IMG/VR virus record: IMGVR_UViG_3300006810_000361
Location: 1-24,719 of that record
Source: a virus
Reading direction: 5' to 3' (one strand)
DNA length: 24,719 bases
The translations under genes and the position numbers were made by a program. This document shows, one piece after another, positions 357 through 11,179 of the stretch (position 1 is the first letter of the stretch; each line of letters begins with the position of its first letter). Below the pieces are notes generated by a model. That model was not told where the DNA came from, made no database searches, and saw nothing but the letters and a program-made list of their open reading frames with translations.

Positions 357-1036
357 TCACCCGCATTGTAGGATTTGGATGCAGCTGGATACACGGTGAC
401 GAAATAGAACATCCAACTGCCGAACCTTGTACCAAACCAGATCGTGTTTATCGTGAAACCAATTGTACTCTTGGGCAGTTTGCACGTCTTGCTGGTATTC
501 AACAAGTTGAAAATTATGGCATAGGTGGTGGAAGTTTACAAAGCACACAGTGGGAGTTTGGACGCTGGGCCCAAAGAGCTAGCAATAAAAATACATTGGT
601 TGTCATTGGTCTTACAGAAGCAAGCAGAATGAGCTGGTGGAATGGTCCAAACAAGCACAAAGAAAAATTTGGCGGAAGATACATGCATAATCATTGGATC
701 TACCCTGGGCACCCTTGGGAACAGTTTGTAAAATTTTATTATGGCACAATTGATGAACACAAACTATGGGCAAACAATTATTGGAACGCTGTGACCTTTT
801 TTAGCAACTATTGTAGTGTTAATGACACACCGCTGTTTATGTTTAATGTGTTTCCTGCGCCTTGCGATATGGAAGAAGTTGTAGATCCTGGGTGGAATGC
901 CAGAGGATACATGCACAAGATACAGTATGAACAAGGCAATGTACTTGCTCCTGGAAAACATCCAAACGAAAAAGGTAGTATTATTTTAGCAGAAAGGTTG
1001 TACAATATGGCCAAAGATGCTAAACTAATACAATGA
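353..1036 (+). CDS. SGNH/GDSL-type hydrolase-like protein
   Basis: 227 residues. The N-terminus has the block I pattern G-C-S11-W-x-H-G-D-E after a beta strand (probable nucleophile Ser11), a block II-like YGIGGGS at 55-61, and a C-terminal H203-P-N-E-K-G followed by a helix, matching the block V His-Pro of SGNH esterases. Two usual residues are not obvious: the block III position reads GLTEASR (86-92) without the Asn, and the Asp three residues before the catalytic His is replaced (APGKHP). Family members remove acyl groups from sugars or lipids; here the position directly after a fibre-like protein makes a role on host surface glycan or virion glycan attractive, but that is inference. Start ATG overlaps the upstream stop by four bases; its own stop overlaps the primase start in the same way. 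Confidence 0.6.
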   Translation: MITRIVGFGCSWIHGDEIEHPTAEPCTKPDRVYRETNCTLGQFARLAGIQQVENYGIGGGSLQSTQWEFGRWAQRASNKNTLVVIGLTEASRMSWWNGPNKHKEKFGGRYMHNHWIYPGHPWEQFVKFYYGTIDEHKLWANNYWNAVTFFSNYCSVNDTPLFMFNVFPAPCDMEEVVDPGWNARGYMHKIQYEQGNVLAPGKHPNEKGSIILAERLYNMAKDAKLIQ

Positions 1037-2004
1037 TTGATCTTCTAGCATACTTGCCAGCAAAACGCAAACAGACATCTGGTGGATGGATAAGTTTTAA
1101 TGCACCCTGTTGCGTTCATAATGGCGAAAGCCAAGACAAGCGTGGACGTGGCGGAATAAAGTTCAATGAAGACGGCTGGAGTTATCACTGCTTCAACTGT
1201 GGATTCACTGCTAGTTTCATAATGGGACGTAATCTTAGTTTCAAAGCCAAACGTTTGCTAGGCTGGTTCAACGTACCGCAAGAAGAAATAGAACGCATCA
1301 ATCTCGAAAGCCTGCGGCATCGTAGCATCGAAGGACTTGCACTAGAGCGCCAGCAGATTCAACAACGTTTAATGAACATTGAGTTCGAAGAACGTGAACT
1401 GCCCAGTCGTGCATACAAGATTGAAAAAGACACAGCATTGTGGAACTATGTTGAGGATAGGTGTTTGCCCGAAGACTACCCATACTTAACGCAAGATGTA
1501 GAACACACTGCCCGTGTTGGATTCATTATACCCTTCACACACAATAACACCATAGTAGGACATGCCACTCGATACATTGATGGCAGAATACCCAAGTACA
1601 TACAGGAAATACAACCAGGTTATGTGTTTGGCACAGACTTGCAAAAGCCTGATTGGCAATATGCTATTGTGGTCGAGGGTGTGATCGACGCACTGTGTAT
1701 CAACGGTTTAGCCGTGTTGCATAATAACATCAACGAAGCACAGAGCAGACTAATACGCAGTTTGGAAAAAGAAATTATTGTTGTTCCTGATCAGGACGAA
1801 GCTGGACTCAAATTGATTGACAGTGCAGTTGAATACGGGTATAGTGTAAGCATACCAGACTGGCCCCAAGACGTAAAAGATGTTAATGATGCTGTTTGTC
1901 GTTACGGAGAGATAACTACACTGCTGATGATAATGGAAAGCCGTGTAAGCGGTAAGATCAAAATTGAAATGGCTCGAAAAAAACTGAAAGCAAAGGTTAA
2001 ATGA
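1033..2004 (+). CDS. DNA primase (zinc finger plus TOPRIM)
   Basis: 323 residues, close in length to T4 gp61 (342). A zinc-binding module lies near the N-terminus: C26/C27 and H29, then the strand GWSYHCFNCG with C53 and C56. The TOPRIM catalytic core is clear: VVEGVIDAL with E215 and D219, then VPDQDEAG with D253 and D255, then KDVND near 282-286. The enzyme should lay down short RNA primers for lagging-strand synthesis together with the helicase encoded next. Start ATG overlaps the upstream stop (ATGA) and the stop overlaps the helicase start (ATGA), so primase and helicase are translationally coupled, fitting a primosome made in fixed ratio. I do not assign a T4 gene number because the polymerase nearby is not of T4 type. 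Confidence 0.88.
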   Translation: MIDLLAYLPAKRKQTSGGWISFNAPCCVHNGESQDKRGRGGIKFNEDGWSYHCFNCGFTASFIMGRNLSFKAKRLLGWFNVPQEEIERINLESLRHRSIEGLALERQQIQQRLMNIEFEERELPSRAYKIEKDTALWNYVEDRCLPEDYPYLTQDVEHTARVGFIIPFTHNNTIVGHATRYIDGRIPKYIQEIQPGYVFGTDLQKPDWQYAIVVEGVIDALCINGLAVLHNNINEAQSRLIRSLEKEIIVVPDQDEAGLKLIDSAVEYGYSVSIPDWPQDVKDVNDAVCRYGEITTLLMIMESRVSGKIKIEMARKKLKAKVK

Positions 2005-3407
2005 AAGATTACTCACCTGAAGTACAGCAACTATTTTTAGAAATCATGATGCAGGATGCACAAAGTTTCTTGCGTGTGCAGAATATATTCAACAGTGAAA
2101 ACTTTGATAGACACTTGAAAGAAACTGCACAGTTTATCTATGATCACGCCAATGAACACAAAACATTGCCAGGTCGAGAACAAATAAGTGCTGTGACAGG
2201 CATAAAACTACAAGAGATTCCAGAACTCAATGAAGGGCACTTGGATTGGTGTTTGCAGGAGTTTGAAGGGTTTACCCGTAGAAGAGAACTTGAACGTGCT
2301 ATTTTAAAGAGTGCTGACTTGTTGGAAAAAGGCACTTATGAGCCAGTGGAAAAACTGATCAAAGACGCTGTACAGATTAGTCTTACAAAAGATCTGGGTA
2401 CAGATTATTTTGAAGACCCACGGGGCAGACTTTCGGCACTCAAAGACAACAACGGACAAAATTCAACAGGCTGGCCTGCGCTGGACAAACTGCTGTATGG
2501 TGGATTCAATAGAGGCGAACTACAGATCTTTGCAGGCGGATCAGGATCAGGTAAGAGTTTGTTCATGCAAAACTTGGCTGTGAACTGGATGGAAGCAGGA
2601 CTCAACGGAGTGTACATTACACTGGAACTCAGTGAAGGATTGACTGCTATGCGCCTTGACAGTATGTTAACCAATACAGCCGCCAAGCAATTGTTTAGAG
2701 ATCTTGACACAGTAGAAATGAAAGTCAAGATGATGAAAAAGAAAGCAGGTAATCTACAGATAAAATATATGCCAGCACAAAGCACAGTAAATGATATTCG
2801 TGCATTCTGCAAAGAGCTACAAATCAAAACTGGACGAGGCATTGACTTTATGTGTGTTGACTATTTGGACTTGTTGATGCCGGTAAGTGCAAAGGTTTCG
2901 CCAAATGATCAGTTTGTTAAGGACAAGTATGTTTCTGAAGAACTACGCAACTTGTCCAGGGAAATGAACATACTGTTTGTAACAGCATCGCAGTTGAATC
3001 GTAGTGCTGTGGAAGAGATTGAGTTTGACCACAGCCATATTGCAGGTGGCATATCCAAGATCAATACAGCAGACAACGTGTTTGGTATTTTCACAAGTAG
3101 AGCAATGCGTGAGCGTGGACGCTATCAGATACAAGCAATGAAAACACGTTCAAGTAGTGGTGTAGGGCAAAAGGTAGACTTGGAGTTTGACATGGAGAGC
3201 CTGCGTATTCGTGACCTAGGTGAAGATCAAGATTACCAAGAGTTCAAAAAGCGTAGCAGTAGTATCTATGAAAGCATCAAGAGCAAGAGCACAATGACCG
3301 GCGAAGAAGCTAGTGCCGCAGTTGAAGATGAACCAGGCAAGATACGAGCTGATGTTGAAAGCACCAAGCTTAAACAAATGCTGGCAGGCCTTAAAACTAA
3401 TAAATGA
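2001..3407 (+). CDS. Replicative DNA helicase, DnaB/gp41 type (SF4)
   Basis: 468 residues, the usual size for DnaB/gp41 helicases. The helical N-terminal domain (about 1-130) is followed by the RecA-like motor: Walker A GGSGSGKS at 179-186, the ITLELSEG motif (H1a-like) at 206-213, Walker B FMCVDYLDLL at 283-292, the TASQLNR sensor region at 328-334, and a KTRSS segment at 381-385 in the position of the arginine-finger region. It should form a hexameric ring that unwinds DNA 5' to 3' at the fork and recruits the primase encoded just upstream. The C-terminal 70 residues are charged and probably flexible. Coupled by ATGA overlaps on both sides. Confidence 0.92.
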   Translation: MKDYSPEVQQLFLEIMMQDAQSFLRVQNIFNSENFDRHLKETAQFIYDHANEHKTLPGREQISAVTGIKLQEIPELNEGHLDWCLQEFEGFTRRRELERAILKSADLLEKGTYEPVEKLIKDAVQISLTKDLGTDYFEDPRGRLSALKDNNGQNSTGWPALDKLLYGGFNRGELQIFAGGSGSGKSLFMQNLAVNWMEAGLNGVYITLELSEGLTAMRLDSMLTNTAAKQLFRDLDTVEMKVKMMKKKAGNLQIKYMPAQSTVNDIRAFCKELQIKTGRGIDFMCVDYLDLLMPVSAKVSPNDQFVKDKYVSEELRNLSREMNILFVTASQLNRSAVEEIEFDHSHIAGGISKINTADNVFGIFTSRAMRERGRYQIQAMKTRSSSGVGQKVDLEFDMESLRIRDLGEDQDYQEFKKRSSSIYESIKSKSTMTGEEASAAVEDEPGKIRADVESTKLKQMLAGLKTNK

Positions 3408-4000
3408 ATAAAAGTCAATGCACACACCAATTACAAACAGCAGTTAATAAGTCTCCACAACTTCTGCCGCATCAACTTTATCTATTGGATAACGTTTTAC
3501 CAAACGACGTTAGAGCAGAACTTAAACAATGGATCAAAGATCCTATCAATGATTTTTACTGGCAACAGATTAAATTTAGTAATAAAACACATGAACGTTA
3601 TTCAGTTAATCTCATTGAAAACTGTGTCATTGAGGACTTGTATAATATTTTTCCCACGATAACTCCCCAGATCCAGGAGAGATTAACATTACCAAAAGAT
3701 TGTGAATTTAAAGGACTTTCTTTGTGGCGTGATTTAGCTGGATACAACATGGATGGTCATACAGATAATCCAGTAATATATGCTGCAATGCAGATATATT
3801 TATTTGATACTGTGGACTCTGAATGCGGAACTATGTTTGATGTTAATAGCGAAAACACCCTAGTTCCGTTTAAAGCAAACACTGGTTATCTCCTTAATAA
3901 CACTGTACTGCCACGACTAAAACATTGGATTGCCATTCCTGTTCCTCCTGGACAAGAACGAGTCAGTATCTATGCCATCTGGACTGGTAGTAAGTCATGA
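3404..4000 (+). CDS. 2OG-Fe(II) oxygenase family protein
   Basis: 198 residues. The iron facial triad is visible as H119-T-D121 in MDGHTDN and the distal H174 in LKHWIA, followed by R186 (QERVSIYAIW), which would grip 2-oxoglutarate. The jelly-roll strands between them (AAMQIYLFDT, CGTMFDV, NTGYLLNN) are typical of phage-borne dioxygenases of the prolyl-hydroxylase-like group. Substrate is unknown; proteins and nucleobases are both possible for phage members. It is coupled by ATGA to the helicase upstream and to the radical SAM gene downstream, so the two redox enzymes may be produced together. Confidence 0.8.
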   Translation: MNKSQCTHQLQTAVNKSPQLLPHQLYLLDNVLPNDVRAELKQWIKDPINDFYWQQIKFSNKTHERYSVNLIENCVIEDLYNIFPTITPQIQERLTLPKDCEFKGLSLWRDLAGYNMDGHTDNPVIYAAMQIYLFDTVDSECGTMFDVNSENTLVPFKANTGYLLNNTVLPRLKHWIAIPVPPGQERVSIYAIWTGSKS

Positions 4001-4968
4001 TAGGCTATGATGAGATCAAACATATAGAACTAGAACTCAGTAGCTATTGTAACGCCAGTTGTTCCTTGTGCCCACGAAATCTTTTTGGTTATAACACCGA
4101 TCTTGGTTATCCTAAAAGGAATCTCAGTCTGGAAGAAGTTAAAAAAATAGTATCAGTGGATTTTTTACAGCAACTAGAGCATGTAAAGTTTGAAGGAAAT
4201 TTTGGTGATCCACTGTCTAATCCAGAAGTGCTTGATATTATAAAATATTTCAATGTTCCTGTAACAATCACTACAAATGGATTCTATAGGAACAAAGAGT
4301 TTTGGCAACAACTTGCTAAACTAGACGTTGAGGTTCAGTTTGGCATCGACGGCATTGATCAGTCTACACACAGTCGTTATAGGCGCGGAACAAATTTTGA
4401 CCGTATATTGGCAAATGCATGCACCTATATAGAGCACGGCGGTAATGCAACGTGGAAAATAATTAAATTTGATTTTAACGCAAGTCAAATTCAAACAGCA
4501 AAGACCTTATCGCAGAAACTTGGTTTTAAAAAATTTATTTTAATTGAGCATGGTAGAACCAGCGGTCCAGTTTTTGATCAAAATGGTAAACTAATAGACA
4601 TCCTAGGCGATTGGCAGGGAAGCACAAGTTTTGAAAAAATAAAACACCAAGTTGACAGTGGGGAAGTTTTGTTAGCCGATATAAACCAACCCAAGGTTGA
4701 TTGTATTTCTTGCCAGAGTGTTAATCACAAAAGTATCTATATCAGCAGCGATGGCTATGTCTACCCTTGTTGTTTTATGGGGTTTTCTCCCAGCACATAC
4801 GGCCGCGGAAGATGGCATCAACCTGTAAATCAACAACTTGTGCCGCTGATTAAAGACAATAATGCACTAGTGCATGGACTAGAGCATGCTGTAAAATGGT
4901 TTAACAGAGTAAGTCTAGTTCCAGGTGATTTGGTTGTGTGCGATGCTAGTTGTGGACATAATCAGTGA
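3997..4968 (+). CDS. Radical SAM protein with SPASM-like C-terminal cysteines
   Basis: 323 residues. The [4Fe-4S]-SAM motif CxxxCxxC is C18-NAS-C22-SL-C25, followed by Pro-Arg. The GNFGDPL segment (68-74) takes the place of the GGEP SAM-binding motif, and TITTNG (90-95) and VQFGIDG (113-119) are the expected barrel strands. Six further cysteines sit in the C-terminal third (C236, C239, C258, C259, C315, C319), a spacing like SPASM or twitch domains that bind one or two extra clusters. Such enzymes often modify peptides or proteins, but no precursor peptide is recognisable nearby. The last codons lie antisense to the end of the convergent polymerase gene (23-bp overlap). Overlaps the upstream oxygenase by ATGA. 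Confidence 0.82.
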   Translation: MIGYDEIKHIELELSSYCNASCSLCPRNLFGYNTDLGYPKRNLSLEEVKKIVSVDFLQQLEHVKFEGNFGDPLSNPEVLDIIKYFNVPVTITTNGFYRNKEFWQQLAKLDVEVQFGIDGIDQSTHSRYRRGTNFDRILANACTYIEHGGNATWKIIKFDFNASQIQTAKTLSQKLGFKKFILIEHGRTSGPVFDQNGKLIDILGDWQGSTSFEKIKHQVDSGEVLLADINQPKVDCISCQSVNHKSIYISSDGYVYPCCFMGFSPSTYGRGRWHQPVNQQLVPLIKDNNALVHGLEHAVKWFNRVSLVPGDLVVCDASCGHNQ

Positions 4969-6646
4969 TAGGCATAACCTTTACTGATTTGCGTTTTACC
5001 TTTAGATATTCACTGTTATCCTTGTGATGCAGTTCCCCTTCACCTAACACCACACTGCCATTTGAATACTTTACAGGACGGTCTACAACTATGTCCACAT
5101 ACTTGCCCTCGCCTACACCCAATGTAATAAAGTGTATGTAACTTTTAGCATCGCATTTGAATACCCTGCTGTTTGCAACTATACCAGCAAACTGAAACCG
5201 ATCGAGATAGAGTTTTTGCAAGCCCATACCTGGTAAAAAGCCTGGGCTATTCCAAGCACCTTTGTCCAAGAAACTCTGCACAGGATCTTCTGTTACCCAA
5301 TTATCAAATCCTAGGTCACGTAGATCCCAGCCGGCACGTTTTGCTTCATTGCGATACACCCAACGTGCATAACTTCCTTGACAGTGCATCAAGCAGGCAC
5401 GCCAGAACTCTTTGGGATTGTGTACCTTATGATATGCTAGTGCCCATATAAGTCTGCCTAAGTTTACAGCGTGTGCTCTACACAAGCCAAAGCCTGACAA
5501 ACTTTGCATTTGATCATAGATCTCATATTTGTCAGGATAATCGCCTAGCCTGCCCATGAACTCCATCATCTTTTCTTCATTCTTTTTAGCAAACGCCCTA
5601 CGATACATATCCGCTTCGTACGGACTTATGCCAATCAGTTTCATAATCTTGTCTATGGCATCGTCCTCATACACAATGGCGTTTTTCTTGATACCTTCTT
5701 CTGTCCAATCACGGAACCAACTTGCCTTGCGTCTACCTTCCATTGCAACAGGACGCACCAATGCACTAGCAAACACACAGTCCTCCACGCCTGTGGGTTG
5801 CAGGGCACGGAATAATCTTTTCATTGTAGGACTTTCGCCTTGTGTAACACCCAGCACATCACCGCGGCACAGCAAGTCTGCTGTGGCATCATCCTGTTTA
5901 GGATATTCGTGCAGTGGAGTATGAGGATCTATCTCTAGCAGTTGGCTGAGTCCTCTGTTGGCCAGTATGTCCACCTTCAAGTGTTCCAGGTCCTCTACTT
6001 CGTTTTTGTCTAGTAATATGAGGTTATCATCACGGAATAGACTTTTGGGTAGTGCCCTATCAAACACCAGTACACCACCACAGTGTTTGCTGATGCAACG
6101 TTTCTTGCCTAACAGTTTGCGTTCTATGCGAGTTGCTTCTTTGACATCCACTCCTAGTTTTTCATAGTCAATGTCTCTGGGCAAGCGTCCTTTTGCACCT
6201 AACCGTTTTGCTGCTTCTCTTTTTGCACTCTTTTCTCTGTACAACACATAGTTTGATATTCTTGCACTTTGCGTAGGCCAGGTGTCAAACACCCGTTGCA
6301 TTGCCAGTTCTTGTTTGTGATGAGGCACGTCAATGTCCACGTCGGGCAAGTCGTCTCTGTGTGGATTTAAGAAACGTGCCAGTGGAATATTCCACTCTAT
6401 TGGATCTACATCCGTTATACCCATGAGATAGCACACCAAACTGCTACCCGCACTACCGCGGGTCATGTGTGGTATGTCATCATTGAGGTCCAATATTTTG
6501 CGTATCTTTAGGAAGTAATCTGTGAAACGTTGCTGTAGTATGATTTCAAACTCTTCAGCAAGTCTATCTTGATATTGTTCACCGTTTGGTACTGGTCGTC
6601 TAAATTCTTCTAATAAACTTTGTATCTGTTCTAATTCGTTTGCCAT
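4946..6646 (-). CDS. Family-C (DnaE-like) DNA polymerase core lacking the PHP domain
   Basis: 566 residues against about 1,160 for bacterial DnaE. Matches to the DnaE palm and fingers are plain: RGSAGSSLVCYLMGITDVDP (63-82), RFLNPHRDDLPDVDID (91-106) with the two catalytic Asp as D104 and D106, SKHCGGVLVF (186-195), LKVDILANRG (223-232) with the third Asp D226, GVTQGES (266-272), and SGFGLCRAHAVNLG (384-397). The region from about 484 (FQFAGIVANSR) looks like the DnaE OB fold. The N-terminal PHP domain is absent: the protein starts about 45 residues before the palm block, and the ATG at 6646 is preceded by a non-coding promoter-like region. Beta-clamp motif and tau-binding tail are not recognisable. 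It is the only minus-strand gene, facing the primase-helicase run. All three catalytic aspartates are kept, so I expect an active polymerase. Confidence 0.85.
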   Translation of the reverse strand: MANELEQIQSLLEEFRRPVPNGEQYQDRLAEEFEIILQQRFTDYFLKIRKILDLNDDIPHMTRGSAGSSLVCYLMGITDVDPIEWNIPLARFLNPHRDDLPDVDIDVPHHKQELAMQRVFDTWPTQSARISNYVLYREKSAKREAAKRLGAKGRLPRDIDYEKLGVDVKEATRIERKLLGKKRCISKHCGGVLVFDRALPKSLFRDDNLILLDKNEVEDLEHLKVDILANRGLSQLLEIDPHTPLHEYPKQDDATADLLCRGDVLGVTQGESPTMKRLFRALQPTGVEDCVFASALVRPVAMEGRRKASWFRDWTEEGIKKNAIVYEDDAIDKIMKLIGISPYEADMYRRAFAKKNEEKMMEFMGRLGDYPDKYEIYDQMQSLSGFGLCRAHAVNLGRLIWALAYHKVHNPKEFWRACLMHCQGSYARWVYRNEAKRAGWDLRDLGFDNWVTEDPVQSFLDKGAWNSPGFLPGMGLQKLYLDRFQFAGIVANSRVFKCDAKSYIHFITLGVGEGKYVDIVVDRPVKYSNGSVVLGEGELHHKDNSEYLKVKRKSVKVMPITDYVHN

Positions 6647-10541: not shown

Positions 10542-11006
10542 ATGTTAGAAATCAATGAATTCAGCGTTCCCTTTTATGGCTTTGAATGGGAAGATGCTGA
10601 CAAACACAAAGACCGACTGAAAGAAATTTGCCATCTACTTGAGCAGAACAACAGCACCAGTGGAGTTGCTCCTGGTGCAAAACATGGCTTGTACGAAAGT
10701 GCATTTAACTTTTTGAATCTTGAAGATCCAAGCGTAATAGCCCTTGCTGAGTTTGTTAATCAAAGTATTTGGAAAAGTGCTAGCAAGGCCAACGAAGGCA
10801 AGTGGGACGCAGGCATGCAACTTGCTGTAAAAGTACACGAAAGTTGGTGCCACATTTGCCGTCCTGGTGCGCATCACGACAAGCACATACATGGTAACAG
10901 CAGTTGGAGTTGTATCTACTACATTATATTGGCGACAGCAACAATGAAACCAAAAATGGACTTACAAGGTACTATAATGCTCTTAACAGCAGTTACTTTG
11001 ACATAG
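10542..11006 (+). CDS. 2OG-Fe(II) oxygenase, N-terminal part of a frameshifted gene
   Basis: 154 residues as read, of which about the first 127 belong to the family. The conserved block WCHICRPG...HDKHIHGNSSWS (H115 and H117 as iron-ligand candidates) followed by CIYY fits the phage 2OG-Fe(II) oxygenase family defined by an H-x-H...S-G-x-Y-Y pattern (TIGR02466-like). After codon TAC at 10920-10922 the frame stops matching: the tail up to 11006 is low-complexity and unrelated. The missing half is in the -1 frame from about 10925. A weak AAGGAC stretch sits very close to the ATG at 10542. Either one base was lost (mutation or assembly error) or a -1 frameshift joins the parts; no classical slippery heptamer is visible at the joint. 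Confidence 0.65.
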   Translation: MLEINEFSVPFYGFEWEDADKHKDRLKEICHLLEQNNSTSGVAPGAKHGLYESAFNFLNLEDPSVIALAEFVNQSIWKSASKANEGKWDAGMQLAVKVHESWCHICRPGAHHDKHIHGNSSWSCIYYIILATATMKPKMDLQGTIMLLTAVTLT

Positions 11007-11179
11007 GCACAATGTGGATGACTGCAAAAAGCAGTATTGACATCAACAACAAGGATGGATTGTTATTGGTGTTTCCTAGTTTTATCTACCATAGTCAACT
11101 TCCATACACCAGCGCAGATAATAAAAATCGTTACGTGGTAGCAGCAAACAGCAAAATTGTAGAGGTAAAAAATGATTGA
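10904..11179 (+). CDS. 2OG-Fe(II) oxygenase, C-terminal part of the frameshifted gene
   Basis: This frame is open from 10898 (a TAA lies at 10895-10897) to the stop at 11179, and the nominal TTG start at 10904 is not convincing. From about 10925 it continues the upstream family protein: YIGDSN, the NGLTRYYN strand, then LLLVFPSFIYHSQLPY with the distal iron-ligand His, and NRYVVAANSK with the Arg expected to bind 2-oxoglutarate. Joined to residues 1-127 of the upstream frame it makes one complete oxygenase of a little over 200 residues. On its own this piece lacks the H-x-H half of the site and could not be active. It overlaps the next gene by eight bases. Confidence 0.6.
   Translation: MELYLLHYIGDSNNETKNGLTRYYNALNSSYFDIGTMWMTAKSSIDINNKDGLLLVFPSFIYHSQLPYTSADNKNRYVVAANSKIVEVKND

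Follow-up and report, generated by a model that had tools for sequence, protein, structure and literature searches.

The DNA studied here (hereafter the window) is a 24.7-kb fragment from IMG/VR and not a whole phage genome. It encodes a family-C (DnaE-type) DNA polymerase that lacks the PHP domain, and the question is whether so small an enzyme is the replicase of its phage or an accessory to another one; the first-pass annotation had named both possibilities. We consider it probable that the enzyme serves jumbo phages as an accessory polymerase at the replication fork, with an intact catalytic site and no proofreading of its own. The positions of the relevant features are collected in Table 1.

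Table 1. Positions of the polymerase gene, its parts and its neighbours in the window, and of the split polymerase genes in the related genome G001.
Feature	Position	Strand	Basis or remark
Single-chain PHP-less family-C (DnaE-type) DNA polymerase, 566 aa	4946..6646	(-)	ATG to stop
Palm/thumb region, residues 20-229	5960..6589	(-)	Pfam PF07733 DNA_pol3_alpha, E 7.8e-41; Pol III alpha structure match
Fingers region, residues 245-440	5327..5914	(-)	PF17657; superposition reaches about residue 448
C-terminal OB domain, residues 480-562	4961..5209	(-)	AlphaFold strands, fold matches
Codons of D102-V-D104 (E. coli D401/D403)	6335..6343	(-)	Alignments; invariant in 231/231
Codon of D226 (E. coli D555)	5969..5971	(-)	Alignments; invariant in 231 sequences
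DnaB/gp41-like replicative helicase, conserved neighbour	2001..3407	(+)	PF03796, phrog_19
TOPRIM (gp61/DnaG-type) primase, conserved neighbour	1033..2004	(+)	PF13155, phrog_47
Radical-SAM gene, variable cargo between helicase and polymerase	3997..4968	(+)	Convergent with polymerase
Split Pol III N-unit, phrog_11127	G001:141683-142156 (L108:1683-2156)	(-)	
Split Pol III C-unit, phrog_11778	G001:232728-233288 (L112:12728-13288)	(-)	

The first-pass annotation had placed a 566-residue DnaE-type core at 4946-6646, with an OB-like end but neither a PHP domain nor a tau-binding end, and this description holds: the open reading frame is exact, and both the domain matches and the predicted fold agree with it. 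The two Pfam matches, to the palm and to the fingers (DNA_pol3_finger, residues 245-363, E 1.5e-16), are above the cut-off and far beyond chance, and they are the only ones; Pfam detects neither a PHP nor an HhH nor a tau-binding domain in the 566-aa protein. In PHROGs the protein matches phage DNA polymerase families, and in a phmmer search against the PDB the DnaE1 enzymes from M. tuberculosis, E. coli and Thermus are recovered, and PolC matches much more weakly. When only close homologues were supplied, AlphaFold2 produced a poor model (pLDDT 67); a broader, diverse alignment remedied this (pLDDT 86.5, pTM 0.84). By VIA-align, residues 1-449 of the resulting model superpose on residues 311-862 of M. 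tuberculosis DnaE1 (Z 33.2, 444 residues) and residues 5-559 on residues 304-1122 of Taq Pol III alpha (Z 32.5, 518 residues). Because of these ranges, the PHP domain (about residues 1-300 of Pol III alpha) and the C-terminal tau-binding end are taken to be absent and the OB domain, which itself matches the SSB/PriB fold with a Z of about 7.7, to be present. In the alignment, the thumb is shortened, and E. coli residues 836-985, which hold the tandem HhH/internal clamp-binding region (about 150 residues), are reduced to about 31 residues. Since the protein contains both a Pol-beta-like palm and Pol III fingers (Pfam; fold Z up to 33), it is a member of family C. In comparison with DnaE1, i.e., E. 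coli Pol III alpha, it shares the palm, thumb, fingers, OB domain and active-site residues, but not the PHP domain, the tandem HhH/internal clamp-binding region or the tau-binding C-terminal domain. The PHP domain is common to the bacterial Pol III alpha groups (DnaE1-3 and PolC), and its absence separates the phage enzyme from all of these.

As catalytic residues, the annotation had listed D104, D106 and D226. Alignments retain D104 and D226 in this role, whereas D106 corresponds to E. coli D405 and the third aspartate of the triad is D102. In addition, K224 corresponds to K553, and H392, in the fingers, to the steric-gate residue H760 (for residue roles in E. coli Pol III alpha, see PMC8485763). 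The triad, the RGS motif, K224 and H392 are invariant in 231 complete sequences of relatives, some of which share one contig; the loss of a catalytic aspartate, a possibility raised earlier, is thus not seen. All 231 sequences are also PHP-less, in that the RGSA motif lies 62-141 codons past the upstream stop; the motif is at residue 63 in the window's polymerase as against residues 292-424 in PHP-containing DnaEs. A frameshifted full-length DnaE was considered as well and is ruled out by the upstream stops, which are close by in all relatives. Several domains are missing, as might be expected if the protein were a host DnaE fragment that is inactive or in decay. However, the length and boundaries of the protein are the same across the 231 sequences, the active site does not vary, and dN/dS is about 0.035-0.09 in the non-saturated pairs, indicating strong purifying selection, so that decay can practically be dismissed. 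Judged from these comparisons, the polymerase is a maintained enzyme under purifying selection and not a relic, and the model and the intact active site suggest that it is active in DNA synthesis.

Relatives are numerous: scans of viral contigs yielded hundreds of them, on contigs of aquatic giant phages, with at least 514 and at least 589 confirmed stretches in two scans. The polymerase of the phage LR756508, used as a query, gave no match in viral contigs. Searches of bacteria with family-specific patterns returned no homologue, and another search led to ordinary bacterial DnaEs. A loose pattern (h-x-x-aromatic-h) resembling a C-terminal clamp-binding tail occurs in 158 of the 231 sequences, a count made without a chance control and given no weight here.

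The DnaB helicase and TOPRIM primase that the annotation had seen beside the polymerase are both recovered by Pfam and PHROGs. Of the 80 loci in which the polymerase gene is flanked by 4 kb or more on each side, 74 contain a gp41-like helicase gene, and the gap between helicase and polymerase has a median of 86 nt. In the loci with a complete polymerase gene, the primase is nearby in 143. This linkage to the helicase suggests that the enzyme would work at the fork.

To decide between replicase and accessory enzyme, the other polymerases of the same phages have to be considered. The closest large genomes are G001 (328,292 bp; probably complete, having a terminal repeat of 105 bp) and G002 (316,012 bp), whose single-chain polymerases are 89% and 88% identical, respectively, to that of the window. 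The window aligns to each of them in numerous blocks with nucleotide identities of 65-80%, and the order of helicase, primase and nrdAB is the same in all three. Each of the two genomes encodes a T4-type gp43-like PolB, in which all the aligned exonuclease residues (T4 D112, E114, D219 and D324) and the polymerase motifs DxxSLYP and DTDS are kept. A clamp loader and a DexA-like exonuclease are also encoded in these near-complete genomes; gp44, gp41, gp61, UvsX, UvsW, gp46/47, ligase and RNase H are encoded in G001 as well, and the DexA-like protein is recovered by phmmer and PHROGs. A DnaQ-type exonuclease (PF00929) is not found in G001 or G002, nor in the window, in agreement with the earlier statement that no proofreading gene is seen in the window. 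No gp45 match to a sliding clamp was obtained in five genomes including isolates, and none of 20 candidate ORFs proved to be a clamp; the clamp is probably too divergent to be recognised, and we do not claim its absence. In more distant relatives, the partner is not always the same. The 484-kb phage LR756508, with a polymerase 36% identical to the window's, has a PolB with exonuclease motifs in two ORFs, whereas the divergent G007, a 178-kb contig with a polymerase 38% identical, encodes a Pol III alpha that contains a PHP domain and is spread over two ORFs. The primary replicase beside the single-chain enzyme thus differs between lineages. Family-A polymerases are absent above the cut-off from six large relatives, and no separate PHP gene, a possibility that had also been raised, is found in six relatives. 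As for the phage of the window, which is represented only by this fragment, a PolB is to be presumed from its close relatives.

The interruptions of these two replicase genes deserve a brief description. The PolB of LR756508 (LR756508.1:260623-266900) extends over frames of 1022 and 625 aa, suggesting an intron, an intein or a split gene. The Pol III alpha of G007 (G007:54614-59995 (+), comprising L379:14614-16062 and L379:17290-19995) is interrupted immediately ahead of its PDxDxD active-site motif; the intervening stretch, about 1.2 kb long and containing small ORFs, may be an intron or another insertion.

That the single-chain enzyme is the main replicase, the center of a minimal family-C replisome, would be consistent with its intact active site, its linkage to helicase and primase, and ten contigs of 66-183 kb that carry the gene without PolB or PolA. 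We do not read the latter as evidence for a replicase, because these contigs are fragments, which often miss a PolB that in G001 lies about 120 kb from the single-chain gene; a replicase role in the phages of these contigs has a small probability, although their incompleteness accounts for the missing gene. With PolB, its proofreading motifs intact, in both near-complete close relatives, PolB again in the 484-kb phage and a PHP-containing Pol III in G007, this interpretation is very unlikely; the proposal of a minimal phage replicase is thus not supported, as the relatives' genomes hold another full replicase, and the alternative of an accessory polymerase stands.

A different PHP-less family-C polymerase is known from jumbo phages, namely, the minimal Pol III alpha of group 2.2, which is phage-specific and split into two proteins (Iyer et al. 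2021, PMC7824862). G001 encodes all three polymerases (PolB, the split Pol III and the single-chain enzyme), and so does G002. Like the split form, the single-chain form has a PHP-less family-C core with the catalytic aspartates kept and occurs in T4-like jumbo phages beside PolB, in this case in the relatives of the window. The split form, however, consists of proteins of 157 and 186 aa encoded by distant genes, with few finger residues and no OB domain, whereas the single-chain form has complete fingers and an OB domain in 566 aa; being one chain, the polymerase of the window differs from the two-gene arrangement that defines the split Pol III. The N-unit, phrog_11127, is known from PA5oct, Atu_ph07, GAP32 and others, and the isolates PA5oct, Atu_ph07, GAP32 and Phosso carry only the split version, so that no cultured phage with the single-chain gene is found among these four. 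In 83 of the complete-gene loci, no more than 10 kb separates the C-unit from the single-chain gene, and in the phage of the window it would sit just past the left end of the window. The single-chain enzyme might be regarded as a fused form, or the source, of the split one, given that both are PHP-less and coexist in G001 and G002 with the C-unit a few kb away. This, however, is unlikely: coexistence implies that neither replaces the other, the single-chain profile scores only 17-24 bits against the N-unit as compared with 31-34 bits for the bacterial Pfam model, and the best tree separates the two forms, although a joint clade is not rejected (p-AU 0.227). As a separate observation, the gene of a small protein of about 125 aa (phrog_11637, G001:232376-232753 (+)) overlaps the C-unit gene tail-to-tail. 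A similar protein (L141:1803-2204 (-)) adjoins the C-unit in Phosso and GAP32 and may be linked to it.

In the phylogenetic tree, the single-chain proteins form one clade (100/100), i.e., they have a single origin. A branch with 100/99 support places bacterial DnaE1 and the PHP-containing phage DnaEs on one side, and DnaE2, Bacteroidota-type DnaEs, one planctomycete DnaE and the single-chain clade on the other. The Bacteroidota-type DnaEs follow a Y-family polymerase gene, the latter judged by eye from the sequence. The stem of the single-chain clade is long (1.6-1.8 changes per site), which may distort its place; the clade is separate from that of DnaE2, the root is undefined, and DnaE3 is sparsely sampled. 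Despite the long stem, the tree favours an ancestry among accessory DnaEs. Full-length phage DnaEs (such as those of Pseudomonas JG024, Cronobacter Ss1 and Bacillus Riggi; phrog_405) are likewise phage-encoded members of family C, but those sampled have about 230-370 extra residues before the palm and are on a different branch. Among bacterial DnaEs, the one closest to the single-chain clade (32% identity) is encoded on a 4.8-kb contig of a planctomycete MAG (L396:992-4033); it has about 1014 aa with a PHP-sized N-terminus and may itself be mobile or viral.

The proposed role can be described as follows. The single-chain polymerase would work at or just behind the phage fork, together with the gp41-like helicase and the primase, where it would take over whenever the proofreading replicase (PolB, or a PHP-containing Pol III in other lineages) stalls, whether for primer extension, gap filling or synthesis past lesions, and would then return the 3' end to that replicase. 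Its OB domain may bind the single-stranded template. The absence of a PHP exonuclease and of an internal clamp-binding domain suggests low processivity and a lack of proofreading. By analogy with bacterial enzymes, primer extension, as by B. subtilis DnaE, and lesion bypass or gap filling, as by DnaE2, are about equally probable as its main job.

In the former case, RNA primers on the lagging strand would be extended by the enzyme before the high-fidelity replicase takes over. The functional analogue, B. subtilis DnaE (DnaE3), is also a non-proofreading family-C enzyme beside a proofreading replicase, although it has PHP-derived and HhH domains and PolC as its partner, whereas the phage enzyme lacks both domains and is paired with PolB. 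That it is tightly linked to helicase and primase in different lineages, lacks proofreading domains and coexists with a proofreading replicase is in line with such a function. On the other hand, the polymerase is on the strand opposite to the helicase in 177 of 205 loci (same strand in 28), so that these genes do not make up one operon, and in the tree it is nearer to DnaE2-type enzymes, with the reservation that DnaE3 sampling is sparse. Primer extension as the specific function is therefore possible rather than likely.

In the latter case, the enzyme would be a translesion or mutagenic polymerase, the phage counterpart of DnaE2 (ImuC), with which it shares a DnaE core, an accessory position beside another replicase and the same side of the tree. 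Its separation from DnaE1, the DnaE2 and Y-polymerase-linked DnaEs on its own side, and the lack of PHP and HhH/clamp domains all point in this direction. The branches involved are long, however, and E. coli DnaE1 scores about the same as two of three ImuC-type DnaE2s against the single-chain profile. Moreover, DnaE2 keeps its PHP domain and belongs to an imuA-imuB cassette, whereas five single-sequence queries for a PolY/ImuB-like protein, which could overlook divergent ones, give no match in four relatives (G001, G002, G006 and G007), so that a DnaE2-like mutasome is not mirrored there. We regard this function, too, as one that may apply but should not be expected.

Phage family-C polymerases, and their split minimal version in jumbo phages, are already known. 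In the literature searched, minimal Pol III alpha of jumbo phages appears only in the split form (PMC7824862), and PF07733 has been reported, as a hallmark and without domain analysis, in about half of one marine jumbo phage group (PMC9123017); within that partial coverage, we find no description of a single-chain PHP-less clade. We tentatively suggest, with somewhat more doubt than confidence, that some jumbo phages possess a three-polymerase replisome (PolB, split Pol III and single-chain enzyme) in which the single-chain enzyme founds a separate, phage-specific subfamily of family C and has a task of its own at the fork, for instance extending primers before a hand-off, or mutagenesis under regulation. 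A single-chain DnaE without PHP and clamp domains but with an intact active site, conserved on hundreds of contigs, would be one of the smallest complete Pol III cores in nature, and it could show whether folding and activity depend on the PHP domain. It also raises the question of why one or two further family-C polymerases are retained by a phage that already has a proofreading PolB, a pairing that parallels PolC plus DnaE in Firmicutes.

Two minor observations concern the surroundings of the gene. In the window, the radical-SAM and polymerase genes overlap tail-to-tail, with 23 nt in common at the 3' end of the latter. Between helicase and polymerase, phages differ in the radical-SAM and 2OG-Fe(II) oxygenase genes that they carry (window 3404-4968, L010, L032, L037, L063 and L073), so that this interval looks like a hot spot for cargo genes. 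Elsewhere in the window (10542-11179), two overlapping ORFs of 154 and 91 aa resemble a single gene disrupted by a frameshift, either real or a sequencing error; L073 contains a 211-aa homologue of the first ORF.
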